The notes below the pieces were generated by a model. That model was not told the DNA's origin, did no database searches, and was given only the letters and a program-made list of their open reading frames with translations. A program made the translations under genes and the position numbers. Shown piece by piece: positions 7,108 to 27,832 of a stretch of DNA of 64,000 nucleotides. This DNA comes from Thermosipho melanesiensis BI429 (GTDB taxonomy: Bacteria; Thermotogota; Thermotogae; Thermotogales; Fervidobacteriaceae). Positions within the stretch are counted from its first letter, which is position 1; each line of letters starts with the position of its first letter. Location of the stretch: the NCBI RefSeq assembly GCF_000016905.1, contig NC_009616.1:1116001-1180000 (forward strand), given 5' to 3'.

Positions 7108-7215
7108 ATTTCAAAACACATATTCTATCCTCACAAAATTCCCGGTAAAGGCTATAAAGGATGTATATTGCAGAAAATAAACACATTTCCCGATCAACGG
7201 TACCACACCATCGTT

Positions 7216-7942
7216 TTAATTTTCTATCAACGCTTTTATCAAACGCGAAAATTGTTCAACCGTCGGCATGGTGATTGTGTGCTTCCATATAATTCCTTCT
7301 GTCACTGCACCCGCATTTGTCCTGTAAATAAGTACATTGTCAGGAGATACTACCATTATCGTTTCAGGATACAACAACCTCAACCTGATTGTTACCTCAT
7401 CAAGTTCCTCACGAGATATCGGAATGATTGTCAATCCCTTGTATTTTTCAGCCAGAGATTCTATATCCTCTGGACACTCTTCACATGTTTGGCAATAGCA
7501 AGATGATACTATAAGTAGTACATAGGGTTTTATCCTTATCTTCAAAAACCCTGATAACGCATTAAGCCAAGTCTTTATCTTTGGTATTTCCGAATCGGTC
7601 AAGAAGTTGAAGTAAATTATTTTCCATTGTCCCGCATGGCCCACCAGATTTATTTCTCTACCACTAACATCTTTGAAAGAAATATCTGGAAACAGTTCCC
7701 CTACAAATGGGACAAGTACAGAAGTCGCGCATCTTTCAAGAACTATAGAGTTACCATTTTTGGTGACGCTCTCTATTGTAAAGTATTCTTTCCCAACTTT
7801 TATGTATTTTCTGAACAGCTCTGGTCCATCGAATTTACCGTTTTCGTTCAAGTCCACCATGAGCAATATCGCGTCTTTTGTATACCACCCATCTGAATCT
7901 GTCTCAGCGATTGCCGCGTTGTAAAATACATTACTGCGTATC
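7216..7942 (-). pseudogene. secreted thioredoxin-fold protein, N-terminus missing
   Basis: The minus-strand frame opens after a stop at about 7940 and has no ATG near the start; the TTG at 7866 is internal. The visible order is a Ca-binding-like segment with VDLNENGKFDGPELF, a beta-rich linker, then a thioredoxin/peroxiredoxin-like domain (SFKDVSGREINL, then VLLIVSSCYCQTCEECP). It resembles exported proteins in which a signal peptide and a first domain precede the redox fold, and both are lost here. Composition is clearly more G+C-rich than neighbouring genes, which suggests transfer followed by truncation. The CxCxxCxxC cluster is unusual for a thioredoxin site. Confidence 0.55.
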
Positions 7943-8369
7943 TAATATCAATTTACTACATGAATAAAAATAACCATCCGAAGCTAAGAATACTTGAATA
8001 TATAATGCTGAACAATTTATCCAAGAAGGTGTGACTTTTAATACTACAAATTTTATATAAGACCATAAAGGAAATTTCACCTATTTCATTATATGTGTTA
8101 CTTTTTTTAATAAATTTTATCTCAATCCATTTAACTTTTATCAAAATGAGGATCTTTTCTTGATAATAGGTTTATTATACATGAAATGTTATAAATAATT
8201 TTAATGCTATTTGCGATATTAATATTTAGTAACACATTTTTAATTTTATCTATAGTTTTGTTTAAATACAACTCTAATTTTCTGGATTTTTCTTTCTTTT
8301 TTTAAAAAAAAAACAATAAATATTTTATAAATTCTTATTATTTTATAAATTTTCTATAAGGAAATTATA
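7943..8369. other. intergenic, AT-rich
   Basis: About 430 bases of very AT-rich sequence between two broken genes. A 62-codon minus-strand ORF at 7956-8144 has no ribosome site and no recognisable content. I see nothing else in it. Confidence 0.4.
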
Positions 8370-9000
8370 TTGATAAAGTCGATATTGTTCAATTAGGTGA
8401 TAATAGTTTTTTGTTTGCTTTGGATTTGTATGTTAGAAAAAATACTAAGCAAGTAAAAATGTATTTAATTTTGTTATAGGACATCTTGAAAAAGTGGTGA
8501 AATAAAAGGATTAAAAAGAGAAGACAGCTATGTTATTCCAATTGAAGCAATCAGAGAAGCTTTAGTAAATGCCGTTGTTCATAAAGATTATTCAATTAAA
8601 GGTTCAGATATAAAACTTGCGATTTTTGATGATAGAGTTGAGATAACTTCACCAGATGGACTTCCCGGGAATCTTAGTGTTGAGCTTATTCTGCAGGGGC
8701 GGTCGGAAATTAGAAATAGAGTTATTGCAAGGTTTTCAAAGAAATAGGTTATATTGAACAATGGAGAAAAGGGATAAAGAGGAAAGAAAAATTATGTAAA
8801 GATAAAACTCTAAAAACGCCAGAGTTTATTGATGATATAGCATTTTTTAAGGTAATAATTTACAAAGTGCAGGATATGAAAAGGAAATTTTGGAATTTCT
8901 TTATAAAAACCATTCTCTTTAAGAAAACCAAAGAAATGTTAGATAATTTTACAAATTTGGAAGTTTCCTTACATTAAATTTTTTTCAAACAAATGGGAAA
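8370..9000 (+). pseudogene. RecG-like/AlbA-type ATP-binding regulator, fragment
   Basis: Pieces of a HATPase_c_4 / RecG-like transcriptional regulator are readable in shifting frames. ALDLYVRKNTK is at ~8418-8450. IPIEAIREALVNAVVHKDYS and then IFDDRVEITSPDGLPG and GRSEIRNRVIAR are at ~8536-8730. After a frameshift near 8730, VFKEIGYIEQW...KGIKR follows. This order is the standard C-terminal part of the family. The N-terminal AlbA/Schlafen-like domain is absent, the frame is broken at least twice, and the winged-helix tail (EKEILEFLYKNHS, about 8877) is decayed. It is a clear relic. Confidence 0.75.
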
Positions 9001-9190
9001 TTGAAAGAAGTTTTTCTTCTTCAAATTCAAAGGCAGAAAAGGTGATGCCAAAAGGCCTTTTTTGGCAAAAGTAGGTGGAACGGTAATAGAAGGACATTGT
9101 GCTTTTGCCATAATATGTGCGCCACAGTTTTCCAGAAACATAATAACATTAATTGCTATAAAATTATATAAGAGTATTGTTTTGTAATGT

Positions 9191-10018
9191 GTGTTTTGTT
9201 TTTGTAATGATTTTAGTGTTATGGTAAGCTTAGATGGAGATCAACTGTATAATGATAAATTACGTCACACAAAAACAGGTAAGGGTACACATAATACTAT
9301 CTTAAATGGTATTAAAAATTTGTTGCTGTATAACACAAATGGTAGAATTAGTATTCGTGTTACGTTGACTTCTATAAATAATGATTTGATTGAATTGACT
9401 GGATACTTTTCTTCCTTAGATTTACCATTCACAATTCAATTAGTTACAACAAATGATGCAAAGTTAAGACCAACTTTTGAAGAGCTATCTTCAGAAATCG
9501 ATGATTTTGGAAAATATATTATAGATTTGGTTAAGAATAAAAATTACAAAGAAGCTTTTAAAAGAATGTTTGGGTGGGTAAACCTTGCTATAACTGCTGT
9601 TCATGGTAAAAGTAAAAGATTTTATCCGTGTGGCGGTGGTAGAAAAGTTCTGGTTGTAAATCCAATGGGTGATGTTTACATTTGCCATAGAATGGATGGA
9701 AGTAATAGTGGTAAGGTTGGAAATATATTTGAAGATGCTCGCGAGGAAATTATTAAAAATACAAGAGAATTATTTTCAGAGAAACTCTATGCTGTGGATC
9801 GCTTACAAGACTGTTCTAACTGCTGGGCGAAATATATTTGTGGTGGTAGATGTTATCATGAATCACTGATTACAACTAATGAATGGAATACTGTTGATAA
9901 GCTCAGTTGCCATTTTAAGAAGAAGTTGTTTGAATTGGGATTAGTATTATATGCTTATTTACCCGATGAATTAAGAGATAATTTTTCAAAAACAAACAAA
10001 TCAAAAGTAATTCTATAA
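9191..10018 (+). pseudogene. SPASM radical SAM peptide maturase, N-terminal half missing
   Basis: The ORF encodes 275 residues that begin inside the TIM barrel (VMVSLDGDQLYNDKLRH). The N-terminal CxxxCxxC motif that binds the SAM cluster is missing, and none is visible upstream (a TAA lies at 9185). The C-terminal SPASM domain is complete and canonical: FYPC, GDVYIC, then CSNC-x5-C-x3-C and a last LSC, seven cysteines for two auxiliary clusters. Such enzymes modify ribosomal peptides. It lies upstream of an S41 protease and a cysteine-rich peptide, as in RiPP clusters. As it stands it cannot do radical SAM chemistry unless the N-terminal half is supplied elsewhere. Confidence 0.8.
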
Positions 10019-10047
10019 TAAACTATTTTAAAAAAGGGGGAGAGCTT

Positions 10048-11399
10048 ATGAGGAAAATTCTAAAAGTGCTGACGGTTTTTTTTTTTTAACAGGTGTCGTT
10101 TTTGCTTCCTCGGTGGTTGCAGCCAAAATCGAACCAGAAAAACTCCAAAGGGATTTTGAATTCATTATTACCCTTTTAAAAGAAGCGTACATCGACCCAT
10201 ATGAACTGGTTGAGAGCCCGGAATTTACGAAGATTGTTGATAGTGTAAGAAAGAAACTCGATAAACCCATGGATAGCTTTGAATTTTTTAAAGCGGTTTC
10301 CCCTATTTTTCATTACCTGAATGATTACCATTGCAATATTGAGTTTCCCATTTCATATGATTTTCAAATCTTTCCAATGACTCTTTATGTTGTAAACGAT
10401 AATATCTACGTTGTCTTTTCACTGGTCGACGATATACCGGTAAAGTCAAAAGTTCTGGCAATCGACGGAATCCCTTCGGCACAAATAATAAAGGAGTTTG
10501 AACAGTATACCAATACAAGAGAAAACACTTCCCTGAAAGAACGTGAAATCTCCCGGCGTATCAATCTGATACCGACGTTTTGGAATAAAAGAAGTGTGGA
10601 AATAGAGTTTGAATACGACGGTTTTACAAAGAGAGAAAAGGTAAGTGCTGTAACGATAAGGGAATATAGAAGAAAAGTTCAGAAATCTGAGAAATCGAAG
10701 TTACCGTACGAATTTGAAAGGAAAGGAAGTATAGGAATATTAAGAATATGGAGTTTTAAATTTAAAGGGAATTTATTTGCTGATTTTAGGGAGTTTTTAA
10801 ATGAGGTTTTTGAGAAAAATAAGGATATGACAGATTTGGTCATAGACATAAGAAGAAACTTCGGTGGCCGTTTGCGAATTGTATTTGAAGTGTTGGGACA
10901 TTTTGTAGATAAGCGGCTCTTCGTAAAGCACAAAGTTAAGGTGAAAAACTCCAAGTACAACGATCAGGAGGCTTTAGCAAGGGTAGGGGTTCGTTACGAC
11001 AAAAACGCCGAGGGAAAGATAATTGAAACGACTTCCTCGTGGGTTATAACCCCAAGAAATCCAGTATTTAAAGGAAGGGTATGGGTGCTTGTCGATAACG
11101 GTATAGCTTCTGCCGCAATAATTTTTGTAGACATTGTCCAAAAGTATGGGATAGGAAAGATAGTGGGAGAAAAACCGGTCTATTCACCGAATCTTACAAG
11201 TGAAGGTACCGAACATTATCTACCAAACGTAAAGACTTATGTTTTTATTCCAGGTTCGTTGTACATATTCTGTCCTCAATCAAACAGAATAATTCCGGAT
11301 TACGAACTTGTAATAACGACAGAGGAAAAACTCGAATGGTTGACGGGAAGTTCCGATCCTGTTCTTGAAAGGGCGATAGAAATTATTGAGAACAACTAA
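10048..11399 (+). CDS. exported S41-family serine protease (frameshift at T12)
   Basis: A good ribosome site (AAGGGGGAGAG) leads to ATG 10048 and a signal peptide beginning MRKILKVLTV. The frame then breaks in a run of twelve T (10076-10087); one more T would join it to LTGVVFASSVVAAK and the rest. The long ORF is 428 residues, counted from an internal GTG at 10113. The C-terminal half is a tail-specific protease (S41) domain: GSIGILRIWSF, then DLVIDIRRNFGG, then the Ser in NGIASAAI and the Lys in IVGEKP, which fit the Ser-Lys dyad. It probably cleaves outside the membrane. Next to a radical SAM enzyme and a Cys-rich peptide it may remove a leader. Composition is richer in G+C than the host average. 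Confidence 0.8.
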
Positions 11400-11416
11400 A
11401 ATTCTGAATAATTATA

Positions 11417-11677
11417 AACATGAAGGAAGGGGGATTAAGGAAAGGGGTGAAAAAATTGAAAATAAAGCTGCTAAATACCGGGCCTAAAAGCGAAGAACAA
11501 ATAGAAGCTTGTCTTACACCCGGAGATGGAGACGGGCTTTGTGGCGGTGAAGATACAGTTATATGCGAGATGATACCTGAACCTTGTAGTACTGATTTTT
11601 GTGGTTATGGTAATCCTCCAATTATATATTAATTCTCAATAAAAACCAAAACAAAAAAATCCCCTTCCTTCATGTTC
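11417..11677. repeat. 19-20 bp inverted repeat enclosing the Cys-rich peptide gene
   Basis: The left arm is 11417-11436 and the right arm 11659-11677. They are reverse complements except that the left has five G and the right four C. In RNA the two arms would pair and close off the whole peptide gene, including the upstream SD-like purine run and ATG 11420. The right arm is not followed by a T run, so it is not a simple terminator. Confidence 0.8.
11447..11632 (+). CDS. small cysteine-rich peptide, candidate RiPP precursor
   Basis: This short acidic ORF ends in a glycine/proline-rich tail. The frame is open from ATG 11420, which lacks a ribosome site. GTG 11447 or TTG 11456 (after AAAGGGG) are better starts, giving about 58-61 residues. 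Five cysteines lie in the C-terminal two thirds (EACLT, GLCGG, VICEM, EPCST, DFCGY), while the N-terminal part (KIKLLNTGPKSEEQIE) is cysteine-free and leader-like. There is no typical signal peptide. It follows the S41 protease after about 47 bases. The precursor role is inferred from layout and cysteine content only. Confidence 0.6.
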   Translation: MKKLKIKLLNTGPKSEEQIEACLTPGDGDGLCGGEDTVICEMIPEPCSTDFCGYGNPPIIY

Positions 11678-12058
11678 CATAAAAATAGGAATAGTGCAGT
11701 TACTGCTGCCCATATTTTCTGAAAAAATAATCAATCACTTTTGTGACGCTCAAAGTAGAATAACTGTATTTCCGAATGGCGATTCCTATCCCTGTAAGTC
11801 GCCGACCAAAGATTCTTACTTTTATCGACAGTTTAGAAAAATCCAGTCCGAGGAGGGGGTGCAGTGATAGGTTCGTACACAAGAAGGATTCTGAAAGATT
11901 CCAAAAAGGAAAAATAAAGAAAACGTTCGACACACACAAGAAGGGTTTCAAGAACAAGGAAAAGAGCTAACAGGTGCGTTGTTTTTCCTATTGCTGTATT
12001 TTGAAGTTGGGAATTTTGTGAACATCCACATTTTTCTCATAGGGGGAAAGGGGATATT
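11678..12058. other. intergenic with no clear gene
   Basis: About 380 bases of mixed composition. A plus-strand frame at 11776-11970 ends in very basic text (KDSERFQKGKIKKTF) and lacks a ribosome site, and minus-strand frames are no better. It is probably debris between the peptide gene and the membrane-protein relic. The sequence from about 12027 matches the copy near 28137. Confidence 0.4.
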
Positions 12059-12154
12059 ATGTACAGAATCGTAGGATACGCAGTGTATATGGGAATAGTG
12101 ATGTTGATAAATCCGTTTAACAAAAGAAGGTTATTGTTCAAATCAAAGACGTGA
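12059..12154 (+). pseudogene. C-terminal relic of a small membrane protein (copy A)
   Basis: A 31-codon ORF encodes one hydrophobic segment and a basic tail, GYAVYMGIVMLINPFNKRRL and so on, after a GGGGGAAAGGGGAT ribosome site. The same C-terminus appears in two other copies (27767-27832 and 28168-28260), where it follows a Yip1-like N-terminal part. Here that N-terminal part is missing. Whether this stump is translated by itself is unknown. Confidence 0.55.
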
Positions 12155-13008: not shown

Positions 13009-13316
13009 GAAAATCCCCCCTAACTTGATTAAATTATAACACTAACAAAAAGGGAAAAAATAATCTTTTTCTTTGCAAAAAAACCAAGTAAAAATAAAAG
13101 TTATACTAATTTATTTCCTGAAAACTCGTACTAGAATGGAAGTGGACTTCCAAAATTCTCGTGTTAAAAAAATGAGTTATTTTTTAAAGGAAGTGGGGCT
13201 AAATTATTTTATTGATTATTGTAAAATAAAAAAATCATGGGTAAATATTGCTTGAAAAGTAGTGATATACGCGCTTAAAGATGATTTTTGTGGTATAATA
13301 ACAATAGGGAGATGAG

Positions 13317-13580
13317 ATGTTGAATTTTAATTGGGATTATTGCGAAGGCGTAGAAACAATAATTAGAAAAATGGTTTTGGGTAATCTTGAAGATTTCAAA
13401 GAACTTTTAAGTAAATACAGTGAAAAAGAACTAAAGGAGATTTTTCTAAATAATCTCCATAGGTTTTATGGTAAAGATAGAAGTTTTTGGAAAGTTATTT
13501 TGGAGGTTTCTAATGAAGAGATTAAAAGAAAATCAGATGAAAGTTTTAGAAACACTGTTACAACTAGAAATTTTCCATGA
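13317..13580 (+). CDS. partner of AbiEii-type toxin, DUF6922-like
   Basis: An 87-residue protein with a helix-rich start, FNWDYCEGVETIIRKMVLGNLEDF, and a helix-turn-helix-like middle (KYSEKELKEIF). It precedes and overlaps the AbiEii-like gene by 68 bases in another frame, as expected of an antitoxin or regulatory partner. The spacing LSKYSEKELKEIFLNN.. resembles the short DUF6922 proteins that accompany these nucleotidyltransferases. An extended -10 box (TGGTATAAT, TATAAT at 13294-13299) and a ribosome site (AGGGAG) precede the ATG. Its antitoxin role is inferred from context. Confidence 0.65.
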   Translation: MLNFNWDYCEGVETIIRKMVLGNLEDFKELLSKYSEKELKEIFLNNLHRFYGKDRSFWKVILEVSNEEIKRKSDESFRNTVTTRNFP

Positions 13581-14130
13581 TTTCTACCTTGCAGGTGGAA
13601 CATGCCTTCTTTTAAAATACAATCATAGGCCTTCCCTTGATTTTGATTTTTTTCTTTTTCCTGATAAAAATTTTTCAAATATATATGAAAATGTAATACG
13701 CAAAAAATTAAATGTAGAATTTATTTATAAAGATCCTCAAACCCTTATTTTTGAGTTAAATAGTATTAAAATTTCGCTGTTTGAATATCAATATCCACTT
13801 TTAAAGAAGCCCGAAAAAATGGGAAAACTTTATTTGGCAAGTGATGAAGATATTGCCTGTATGAAAATGAGTGCAATCAGTCAAAGAGGGTTAAAAAAAG
13901 ATTTTTTTGACCTTTGGTATTTAATTAATATTCACAAATGGACTCTTAGGGATTTACTTTCAATGCTTGGTAGAAAATATAAAGGGTACAACCCTTTTAT
14001 TTTTCTTAAGGCTTTGGTTTATTTTGAAGATGCGGAAAAAAATAAAGATTTTAGAGAAATTGAAGAAAGATGGAAAGATATAAAGAAATTTTTTGGTGAT
14101 TTTGTAAAATCCTTTAGAGAATATATTTAG
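13513..14130 (+). CDS. nucleotidyltransferase AbiEii/AbiGii toxin family protein
   Basis: The best start is ATG 13513, with TGGAGG five bases upstream, which lies inside the previous gene. The protein has the DUF1814/AbiEii pattern: FYLAGGTCLLLKYNHR near residue 22 (GG-T/S motif), followed by SLDFDFF with the metal-binding DxD pair. SDEDIACMKMSAISQRG and KKDFFDLWYL lie further on. At 205 residues it is on the short side for the family. Family members act as toxins of phage-abortive AbiE systems by transferring nucleotides. A decayed partial copy of the overlap region lies at 22162-22270. Confidence 0.85.
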   Translation: MKRLKENQMKVLETLLQLEIFHDFYLAGGTCLLLKYNHRPSLDFDFFLFPDKNFSNIYENVIRKKLNVEFIYKDPQTLIFELNSIKISLFEYQYPLLKKPEKMGKLYLASDEDIACMKMSAISQRGLKKDFFDLWYLINIHKWTLRDLLSMLGRKYKGYNPFIFLKALVYFEDAEKNKDFREIEERWKDIKKFFGDFVKSFREYI

Positions 14131-25623: not shown

Positions 25624-25975
25624 ATGAAAAAGGTATACTTTTTGTTTTTGATTATTTTAGTAGGGAGTTTGGGGGTTTCTGCTAATTTTGATGTTTCATA
25701 GTAGTTTACTAAATGATAGTGTAGGTATTTTTAGAGAATGTGATGAGAGCTTAACAGAACCTGTTACATATGCTATTTGTGTAGAGTGGGAGAATTCGGA
25801 AGGATATTTGGAACAGAATTGTTTTGGAGTTTGTGCGTCGTTTTGCGATGCCATAGGAAACTTTTGGGGTAAATTGGCATGTAAATCTGGATGTTTGGGA
25901 ATATGTTGGAAACCAGAAAGAAGACTATGTATAAAATATGATACTGTAACAATTTATCCTTGTAAAGGGAATTAG
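25624..25975 (+). CDS. secreted ten-cysteine protein (frame-shifted)
   Basis: ATG 25624 after GGGGTGAA starts a clear signal peptide, MKKVYFLFLIILVGSLGVSA, but this frame stops after 25 codons (TAG TAG at 25699-25704). The next frame over, without another start near it except ATG 25691, continues as a cysteine-rich domain. Removing one T near 25699 gives SSLLNDSVGIFREC and so on, about 116 residues in total. Ten cysteines (REC, AIC, QNC, GVC, SFC, LAC, SGC, GIC, RLC, YPC) could form five disulfides. It is probably exported. I do not recognise the family. Confidence 0.6.
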
Positions 25976-25986
25976 GGGGTGAATTT

Positions 25987-26904
25987 ATGAAAAGTTTAAA
26001 AAAGTGGGGGTTGTTTTTGATTATATTCTTGTTTGCTAGTTTAGCATTTTCTGAAACATATGTAGCTGAAAATGATCTTCAAAGAGTAATTGATACTGCA
26101 AAAGATGGAGATGTTATAATATTGAGTAATTCTTTTAATGAAAGAGTTGAAGTTATAGGTAAGGAATTGAAATTTATTAGTATGGGAGAATCTGGAGAAA
26201 TATCATTTATTGGTGATAAAAATATAAAAAACATTTTTAACGAAAAACCTGTGATATATTTGGAAAGTGCTACAGTTACATTGGAAAATATAAAAATAAG
26301 TGCATTGAATGTGGTTGGAATTGGAATTTTAAATTCTTCTGTTTATTTAAAGAACGCTACAATAGAATTGAATAATGGAATAGGATTAGTTTCAGTTAGT
26401 GATGAAAAAAATGAAAGCTATGTGAAACTTGAAATGGTTAAGATTTTAGATAAAAAATATAGAAAAGTTTCAGGGAAAAATGCATCATTAACTTTTAGTA
26501 GTGTGGGAATTTTAGGCTCATATAACACTACTATTGTTGCAAATAATGTTGACATTTCAGGAATGAAAAAAGCATTTGTTCTGGAAAATAAAGAAAGCTA
26601 TATATTTAATTCTAATTTTTCTGAAAATGAAATATGTTTGATGATATTTTCTGGGAATCAAAATATAATAAATAATAAATTTAAGCTAAATGTTCAGGCA
26701 ATTGTAGCTGCAAATAATTCCAATGTGTCTTTAATAAATAATTATTTTGATGAAAATAATCAGGATTTAGAATTGTTATCAAAGGACTGTGATAGTTGTC
26801 CAAAAACAAAAAAATTCACAGGAGTTTTAAAGGGCTATTCCAATGTTTCAAAATCTTTATTGATGAAAACTAATTTTTCAAATCACTTTTGGGATAATAA
26901 ATGA
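25987..26904 (+). CDS. secreted right-handed beta-helix protein
   Basis: A 305-residue protein with a signal peptide (basic MKSLKK, hydrophobic GLFLIIFLFASLAFS). It then has a series of short beta-coil repeats rich in Val/Ile/Asn (DLQRVIDTAKDGDVIILSN, SATVTLENIKIS, NIINNKFKLNVQAIVAANN), the pattern of a NosD/pectate-lyase-type parallel helix. No catalytic triad of a lyase is evident. A CDSC pair lies near the end. It is 11 bases after the Cys-rich protein and in the same transcript, ending in a strong terminator, so the two may work at the cell surface together (inference). Confidence 0.75.
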   Translation: MKSLKKWGLFLIIFLFASLAFSETYVAENDLQRVIDTAKDGDVIILSNSFNERVEVIGKELKFISMGESGEISFIGDKNIKNIFNEKPVIYLESATVTLENIKISALNVVGIGILNSSVYLKNATIELNNGIGLVSVSDEKNESYVKLEMVKILDKKYRKVSGKNASLTFSSVGILGSYNTTIVANNVDISGMKKAFVLENKESYIFNSNFSENEICLMIFSGNQNIINNKFKLNVQAIVAANNSNVSLINNYFDENNQDLELLSKDCDSCPKTKKFTGVLKGYSNVSKSLLMKTNFSNHFWDNK

Positions 26905-27528: not shown

Positions 27529-27832
27529 GTGCGGAAGTTTTTAAAAACTTTACTGAAGCCAACCGATATGTTCTATAAGAATTTCATCGATCCGAAAAAT
27601 AATTTCTGGATATATCTGTTGTTCTGTATCCTTGACAGCTTTAATCTTTATAAAGTGGCTAATATGGTGGGCCCCTTTCTTTATGATACACCCAGGTTGA
27701 GTTTATTTTGGAAGATTTTAATCATGTTAGTAGGTGTTTTACAGATTATTAGGTTATGGAGGATACATGGCAATAGTAGTACTCTTTCACCCGTTTAACA
27801 AAAGAAGGTTATTGTTCAAATCAAAGACGTGA
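27529..27832 (+). pseudogene. Yip1-like small membrane protein, frame-shifted (copy C)
   Basis: A GTG start after a CAGGTGATAGA ribosome site opens MRKFLKTLLKPTDMFYKNF, typical of the cytoplasmic front of Yip1-like proteins (P-x-x-MF). Hydrophobic segments follow (IYLLFCILDSFNLYKV, LFWKILIMLVGVLQIIRL). The ORF ends at 27798, but in the next frame the text goes on as MAIVVLFHPFNKRRL and so on to 27832. A shift near 27760 would join them into about 100 residues. It is related to copies A and B. The family call is tentative. Confidence 0.6.

Follow-up and report, generated by a model that had tools for sequence, protein, structure and literature searches.

The stretch analysed here, a 64-kb window of the chromosome of Thermosipho melanesiensis BI429 (NC_009616.1, positions 1,116,001 to 1,180,000), contains three genes that follow each other on the plus strand: the 3' fragment of a gene for a radical S-adenosylmethionine (SAM) enzyme with a SPASM domain, a gene for an S41-family protease and a gene for a small peptide with five cysteines (Table 1). 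As listed mechanically, the corresponding open reading frames (ORFs) are 9191-10018, 10113-11399 and 11420-11632. A first description, made from the DNA letters alone (the sequence-only reading), had named the same three genes in this order and on this strand, and had called them a set like those for a ribosomally synthesized and post-translationally modified peptide (RiPP). Both points were supported, and intact clusters in which the genes are ordered alike do exist. In fact, 2080 of 2500 aligned columns (83%) between 9205 and 11695 are identical to one such cluster in a second genome of the genus (G003), so that the gene set is not a matter of chance. A further stretch, 13291-14109, is syntenic with G003 at 70% identity, which puts the window locus at the same place as the G003 cluster.

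Table 1. Features of the locus, with positions counted from the first base of the window.
Feature	Position	Strand	Remarks
Breakpoint	9205..9205	.	homology to the intact G003 cluster begins at this base (DNA alignment)
Radical SAM/SPASM maturase gene, 3' fragment	9206..10018	+	270 of ~442 residues; without the N-terminal part and the CxxxCxxC half
ATG and signal-peptide codons	10048..10089	+	frame differs from that of the protease; stop inside the 12-T tract 10076-10087
S41-family protease	10083..11399	+	homology from ~10083; frame open from 10032; first start GTG 10113
Inverted repeat, 5' arm AACATGAAGGAAGGGG	11417..11432	+	16/16 pairs with the 3' arm
Precursor peptide MKIKLLNTGPKSEEQIEACLTPGDGDGLCGGEDTVICEMIPEPCSTDFCGYGNPPIIY	11456..11632	+	58 aa, 5 Cys, TTG start probable (ORF, alignment)
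Inverted repeat, 3' arm CCCCTTCCTTCATGTT	11661..11676	+	complement of AACATGAAGGAAGGGG
Flank: AbiEii-type nucleotidyltransferase (13468-14130) and small partner (13317-13580)	13291..14130	+	homologous to the flank of the G003 cluster

Intact relatives, which the sequence-only reading had proposed to look for, were found in BI429 itself and in G003. A DNA search of the BI429 genome recovered a paralogous cluster on the opposite strand (427,515-432,586), which upon full reading proved to encode a maturase (446-aa ORF, with CxxxCxxC), an S41 protease, a peptide (61-aa ORF), an ABC-2 permease and an ATPase, in that order. G003 has two clusters of radical SAM gene, S41 gene and peptide gene, one syntenic with the window and with a full-length maturase of 442 aa, the other with a different peptide (type B; the peptides of the window, the paralogue and the syntenic G003 cluster are referred to as type A). 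Thus, homologues of the window peptide do adjoin SPASM enzymes, and each of the five window cysteines has a cysteine as its counterpart in the two other type A peptides. The exporter of the intact cluster does not adjoin the window copy. We consider it quite probable that the locus represents a copy, truncated not long ago, of a radical SAM RiPP cluster of the Thermotogota. It is a decaying version of a genuine, little-known RiPP cluster, whose intact form is likely to yield a small peptide with chemical cross-links.

The maturase fragment, which as a listed ORF begins at GTG 9191, exceeds the cutoff of two SPASM models (TIGR04085, 57.9 bits, cutoff 27; PF13186, 26.8 bits, cutoff 21.5), and it has kept all seven SPASM cysteines that are common to the two full-length relatives compared, in agreement with the first description. 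The absence of the radical SAM half was likewise confirmed: a Pfam search of the fragment gave no match to the radical SAM domain PF04055, and with the full-length paralogue as tblastn query against the window only residues 174-438 were covered, the two other matches having E-values of 0.39 and 0.54. Only from 9205 onward is the sequence homologous to the sister cluster, which implies that a rearrangement beheaded the maturase gene; it would have removed the catalytic half, and without that half the window copy cannot modify its own peptide. Positions 7200-9204 contain pieces that match other places in related genomes, including two genomes of the genus at 77-84%, and the truncation is therefore not a base error. 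That the truncation, or the shift in the T-tract of the protease gene (see below), results from faulty sequencing or assembly is very improbable, although BI429 is listed as sequenced by 454/Sanger (PMC6211235, Table 1) and the shift lies inside a run of 12 T's; the shift is the only doubtful part. A second 5' truncation of the gene was observed in G010, where a 116-bp match begins in the final ~68 bases of the maturase gene, which lie 5' of the S41 gene, and continues into the latter. The maturase was thus lost from the same side there too.

The sequence-only reading had offered a choice between a dying cluster and an enzyme that uses an N-terminal half from elsewhere. The dying copy fits the data, and the split enzyme finds no support. 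To assume that it works together with a half from another gene is hardly credible, in spite of the constraint on the fragment and its complete set of SPASM cysteines. The missing half, used as a protein query, had six matches in the BI429 genome, of which only the whole paralogue was close (66%), the other five being distant or broken (the next best, at 1,762,607, showed 38% over 86 residues). Similarly, the G003 maturase DNA 5' of the break matched only the intact paralogue (76%) and one short stretch. Moreover, the cut corresponds to paralogue residue 174, which falls within the radical SAM domain (residues 77-233 by Pfam) and not at its edge, and by eye no Shine-Dalgarno sequence precedes GTG 9191. 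The own-genome search thus disposes of an N-terminal half from elsewhere, whereas service in trans by the whole paralogue is possible. The match near 1,762,607 (L030) is the front part of a maturase-like radical SAM/SPASM gene of another type, which is itself interrupted: an in-frame stop separates the half with CxxxCxxC from that with the SPASM domain.

The peptide gene had been placed at 11447-11632. The gene itself was confirmed and only its start was revised: translation probably begins at TTG 11456 and not at 11447 or 11420, because this TTG is the first possible start past a stop codon in the sister gene, and because a purine run ends 7-8 nt 5' of it in both window and sister. The peptide indeed has a cysteine-free leader and five cysteines, and the suggestion of a novel precursor family holds, as no matches were found in NCBIfam, Pfam or PHROGs. 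Its ratio of nonsynonymous to synonymous substitution rates (dN/dS) relative to G003 is 0.231. Type A peptides occur in 2 of 103 genomes of the phylum, twice in BI429 (G000) and once in G003 (in a tally of 12, the other matches all had E-values of at least 0.12), and type B peptides once in G003 and twice in G007 (in a tally of 14 genomes, the others all at 0.039 or higher). Reading of gene neighbourhoods added two more precursor sets, one in G069 and one in genomes of family f9, there together with a permease and an ATPase that are homologous. When 11 precursors were aligned, P10, C19 and P55 (numbered as in the window) did not vary at all and M1 and K4 hardly did; the cores aligned poorly, and to group these peptides by an 'LN..P' leader is in part a matter of judgement. 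The six of these precursors that were tried had no match in NCBIfam. The idea that the peptide cassette is a mobile element was dropped: GGAAGGGGGATTAA was matched five times in the BI429 genome at no more than one mismatch, the two exact matches being the two type A peptide genes, and no cassette family appeared. Downstream of the peptide gene lies a 57-aa ORF (11694-11867) with a faint SPASM start at 11736-11822 (TIGR04085, E 0.09, below the cutoff), no Pfam match and, in a blastp comparison restricted to four proteins, a match of 8e-5 to a third radical SAM protein of G003; possibly it represents the remnant of a second maturase.

The peptide gene is enclosed by an inverted repeat whose arms flank it from 5' of the ribosome-binding site to 3' of the stop codon. 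The repeat recurs at the same places in each of the three type A copies: 16/16 pairs in the window, 17/17 in G003 and 18/20 in the paralogue. Between window and G003 one pair shows a compensatory change from G-C to A-T; between window and paralogue there is one from T-A to A-T among 13 common pairs, none of which is broken. The evidence comprises these three sequences only. Within the window no other perfect inverted repeat of at least 12 bases has its arms 150-300 apart and a GC content of 40% or more, and in 50 Markov-simulated sequences no such repeat of 14 bases arose. Five regions of type B and Kosmotoga type, inspected with a repeat finder, yielded only short, imperfect or A+T-rich inverted repeats, nothing comparable being present at the type B and G069 genes, and a search for known RNA elements between 8800 and 12400 gave no Rfam match at E<=0.5. 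The folding z-score of the whole segment was -2.24 for the window and -0.94 for the paralogue locus (L007); considering these values the overall fold stability is unconvincing, and it is the closing stem alone that stands out. Most likely the repeat would insulate or stabilise the peptide message over a long range.

The type of the maturase was deduced from the intact copies. The full-length paralogue scores 238.3 bits with the PapB model, 229.9 with the nif11-type model and 228.9 with the SCIFF model, against 125.7 for RumMC of the sactipeptides. The PapB and SCIFF scores lie below the equivalog cutoffs for ranthipeptides (340 for NF047865 and 425 for TIGR03974). Its best solved relative is 5wgg (E 8.8e-52), which we take to be CteB. 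The CxxxCxxC core and the seven-cysteine SPASM that mark a ranthipeptide enzyme are both present in the paralogue and, by motif, in G003; the window copy lacks the core. Next to the enzyme lies the corresponding type of precursor, Cys-rich with a Cys-free leader and conserved cysteines. PapB was reported to join Cys to Asp/Glu in Cys-X3-Asp/Glu motifs and to tolerate other spacings (PMC9413430), and the type A core contains one Cys-X3-Asp motif, CGGED. Given the maturase scores, the 5wgg match and this fit, a ranthipeptide-like chemistry is to be expected for the family, which we do not extend to a claim of class membership. The resemblance to PapB and CteB (TIGR03974; PDB 5wgg) thus includes the radical SAM core and seven-cysteine SPASM of the intact paralogue and a precursor with several cysteines, acidic residues and one Cys-X3-Asp motif, but the precursor lacks a six-fold CX3D pattern and the cluster has an S41 protease and an ABC-2 exporter in addition.

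An earlier survey listed Tmel_0409 of BI429 as a putative sactipeptide enzyme, among radical SAM genes that were retained for accessory genes such as transporters (Letzel et al. 2014; PMC4289311, Table 4). It is probably the intact paralogue, as its gene number (409 of 1,879) would by estimate place it near 0.42 Mb, close to that cluster; section 7 of the survey names neither a precursor for it nor a second copy. A sister system was seen in five genomes (L070, L157, L159, L192, L193), with two radical SAM genes (Clo7bot/CefB-like in L070, where tested), a peptide that starts MEF(L/V)N.P and contains SFCD as a motif, and an ABC-2 exporter of the same family. We take L192 to be the TM1316 locus; the TM1316-type locus of Thermotoga maritima was reportedly treated by Frock et al. 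in 2013. L192 shares with the present family a homologous ABC-2 permease (61%) and ATPase and a Cys-rich peptide with a MEFLN.P start, and differs in having two radical SAM genes of another type and no S41 gene in the 20 kb read.

The S41 ORF matches PF03572 with 74.1 bits (cutoff 24) and contains the Ser nucleophile of the family. The sequence-only reading had called the protease exported, which applies only if the 12-T tract is read in another phase; as sequenced, the ATG and signal codons are out of frame and the protease frame has no start codon between 10032 and GTG 10113. In the G003 counterpart a seven-T run occupies this position and the frame is single. The shift may reflect decay, slippage or phase variation, or a 454 homopolymer error. 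The motifs D-x-H and Ser are conserved and the usual S41 lysine is absent. In an alignment of 18 S41 rows, 14 carry D-x-H and all 14 have the Ser, and the four without the histidine lack it; the Lys of a CtpA/Tsp-type Ser-Lys dyad was found in none of the 14 at its place, as taken from the alignment to 4ql6. This pattern points to a mechanism with a Ser/His pair.

The dN/dS of the S41 gene relative to G003 is 0.183. Its dS to G003 amounts to 0.82-0.83, versus 0.27 for the maturase fragment and 0.30 for the peptide, and the GC content at third codon positions is 36.7%, versus 21-22% for the neighbours. The nearest row by identity (77%) is from another genus (G010), and the S41 tree did not resolve the window, G010 and the G003/G006 pair. 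The gene thus looks mosaic, likely by recombination with a relative. Structure prediction from two rows reached a mean pLDDT of 47.9. A profile search of genome contigs with the S41 alignment retrieved two loci, in a Thermosipho metagenome-assembled genome (57%) and, distantly, in Flavobacterium (25%).

Matches to the maturase at E<=1e-20 were present in 15 of the 61 genomes of the relatives search, BI429 included, but outside BI429 only G003, of the same genus, was near (62% and 48%). Across the 103 genomes of the phylum the maturase profile recovered 16 at 1e-30, the S41 profile 32 at E<=1e-15, many of them distant, and the permease 24 at E<=1e-20, of which 21 had at least 44% identity. Two other genomes of the genus (G001, G002) gave no match to maturase, S41 or type A peptide. 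In G069 the transcription order is permease, ATPase, peptide, S41, peptide, S41, maturase and a second radical SAM gene; its loci L071-L073 show amplification, with five ORFs of the window S41 family, at least two nearly identical and most beside radical SAM and ABC genes. We presume that G069 is K. olearia, G029 Thermotoga maritima, G007 T. africanus and f9 the Petrotogaceae. Three genomes, all drafts of 10 to 90 contigs, have kept open type A S41 genes (identity to the window 74% in G006, 77% in G010 and 59% in G014), and searches for the peptide, the maturase and the permease/exporter gave no match there. G007 contains two type B S41-peptide pairs, no family maturase at 1e-30, and a type A S41 gene that is broken by stops, next to which the permease and ATPase genes are open. 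This distribution suggests that production was lost and the S41 gene kept. An immunity or clearance role of the protease would explain such retention, but so might recent transfer, as the dS between the G003 and G006 S41 genes is only 0.11.

From the anatomy of the intact copies we would picture the pathway as follows. The N-terminal domain of the maturase would bind the 'LN..P' leader, and the enzyme would cross-link core cysteines to nearby residues by ranthipeptide-like thioethers. The product would be exported by the ABC-2 permease and ATPase, and the exported Ser/His-type S41 protease would trim it or protect the producer. The intact paralogue at 431 kb, with a precursor of its own that has the same core motif, CLTPGDGDGxCGGED, could also act on the surviving window peptide.

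An alternative is that S41 protease and peptide form a functional module that does not depend on the local maturase, in which another radical SAM enzyme serves the peptide in trans and the protease, as an immunity or product-degrading enzyme, was kept after production was lost. We regard this as possible and clearly the less likely view. Three of the eight S41-peptide pairs were found without an adjacent intact family maturase (the window and the two of G007), the open S41 genes of G006, G010 and G014 fit it, and dN/dS in pairs with these orphan genes is 0.158 to 0.248 in five cases and 0.403 and 0.417 in two. However, the window S41 as sequenced has no signal peptide in its own frame. One of the G007 pairs has two sister-type radical SAM genes ~1-4 kb away, and in the same genome a weaker maturase-like match (3.4e-21) lies elsewhere. 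In addition, the orphan genomes are drafts, the G010 contig ending 1.1 kb past the S41 gene, and the low dS of the G003/G006 pair indicates that the copy moved recently, so that long retention is not required. In its fullest form, rather doubtful to us, the pair would be a self-contained module that outlives the maturase, with the protease acting in immunity against, or clearance of, the cross-linked peptide of neighbours or of the paralogue, and with the conserved long-range helix controlling the supply of precursor message.

Several observations weigh against a recently truncated copy of a ranthipeptide-like cluster with a processing protease. Apart from the truncation the fragment shows no decay: it has no stop, seven cysteines and a constrained branch. 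Its dN/dS relative to G003 is 0.265, and parsimony, for which the paralogue served as outgroup, puts 22 synonymous and 15 nonsynonymous changes on the window branch and 12 and 25, respectively, on the G003 branch. Such constraint would fit a recent truncation and also a fragment still in use. The open frame is weak evidence either way, as in neutral simulations 2.3 stops were expected and 8.5% of the runs had none. The G003 enzyme scores equally with the PapB (236.8) and nif11-type (236.4) models, and no specific maturase model reached its cutoff among the best 25 shown. The S41 protease of the paralogue cluster may be impaired, since an internal tandem duplication of ~47 residues (L007 6646-8130) has doubled the active-site serine segment. 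Finally, the proposal that the S41 protease is the leader or product peptidase stays plausible and is weakened by the three orphan genomes, which would argue against a simple leader-peptidase role. In the same locus a partial second copy of the cluster ABC ATPase was noticed (L007 11182-11481; 96% over 79 residues, own genome).

A pattern scan gave 12 promoter-like sites, versus 12.0 in shuffled sequences, and three terminator-like sites, versus 1.9. Elsewhere in the window a Cys-rich ORF (25688-25975) is followed by one for an exported protein, beta-helix-like by eye (25987-26904), neither with family matches; a similar-looking pair lies beside the RiPP cluster in L072 (12958-13389 and 12022-12954, the latter scoring 27.9 bits for NosD). 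The segment 12028-12154, which codes for the last part of a small membrane protein (INPFNKRRLLF), is repeated near 27740 and 28137 at 80-82%. ORFs of this type also occur in L028 (10169-12272), beside ~97-aa 'VRPYSLTANDGTGRMHDGYY' ORFs, perhaps as a toxin-immunity-like array.

Titles and abstract starts among the literature matches listed gave no description of an S41 protease in a radical SAM RiPP cluster, of the window copy or of its S41-paired family. New here are the inverted repeat in three type A copies with its two compensatory changes, the probable TTG 11456 start and the orphan type A S41 genes. As far as the literature searched shows, the radical SAM RiPPs of hyperthermophilic Thermotogota are hardly characterised, and the comparison provides a precursor family whose leader can be recognised, along with an exporter family, a paired protease and a heat-stable maturase open to immediate testing. 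The conserved repeat, if confirmed at the RNA level, would represent an unusual handling of a RiPP precursor message. With the window cluster caught in the midst of losing its maturase and relatives at later stages, the role of the S41 protease becomes directly testable, and if S41 protease and peptide do form a module, producers, partial producers and resistant non-producers would exist side by side among Thermosipho genomes.

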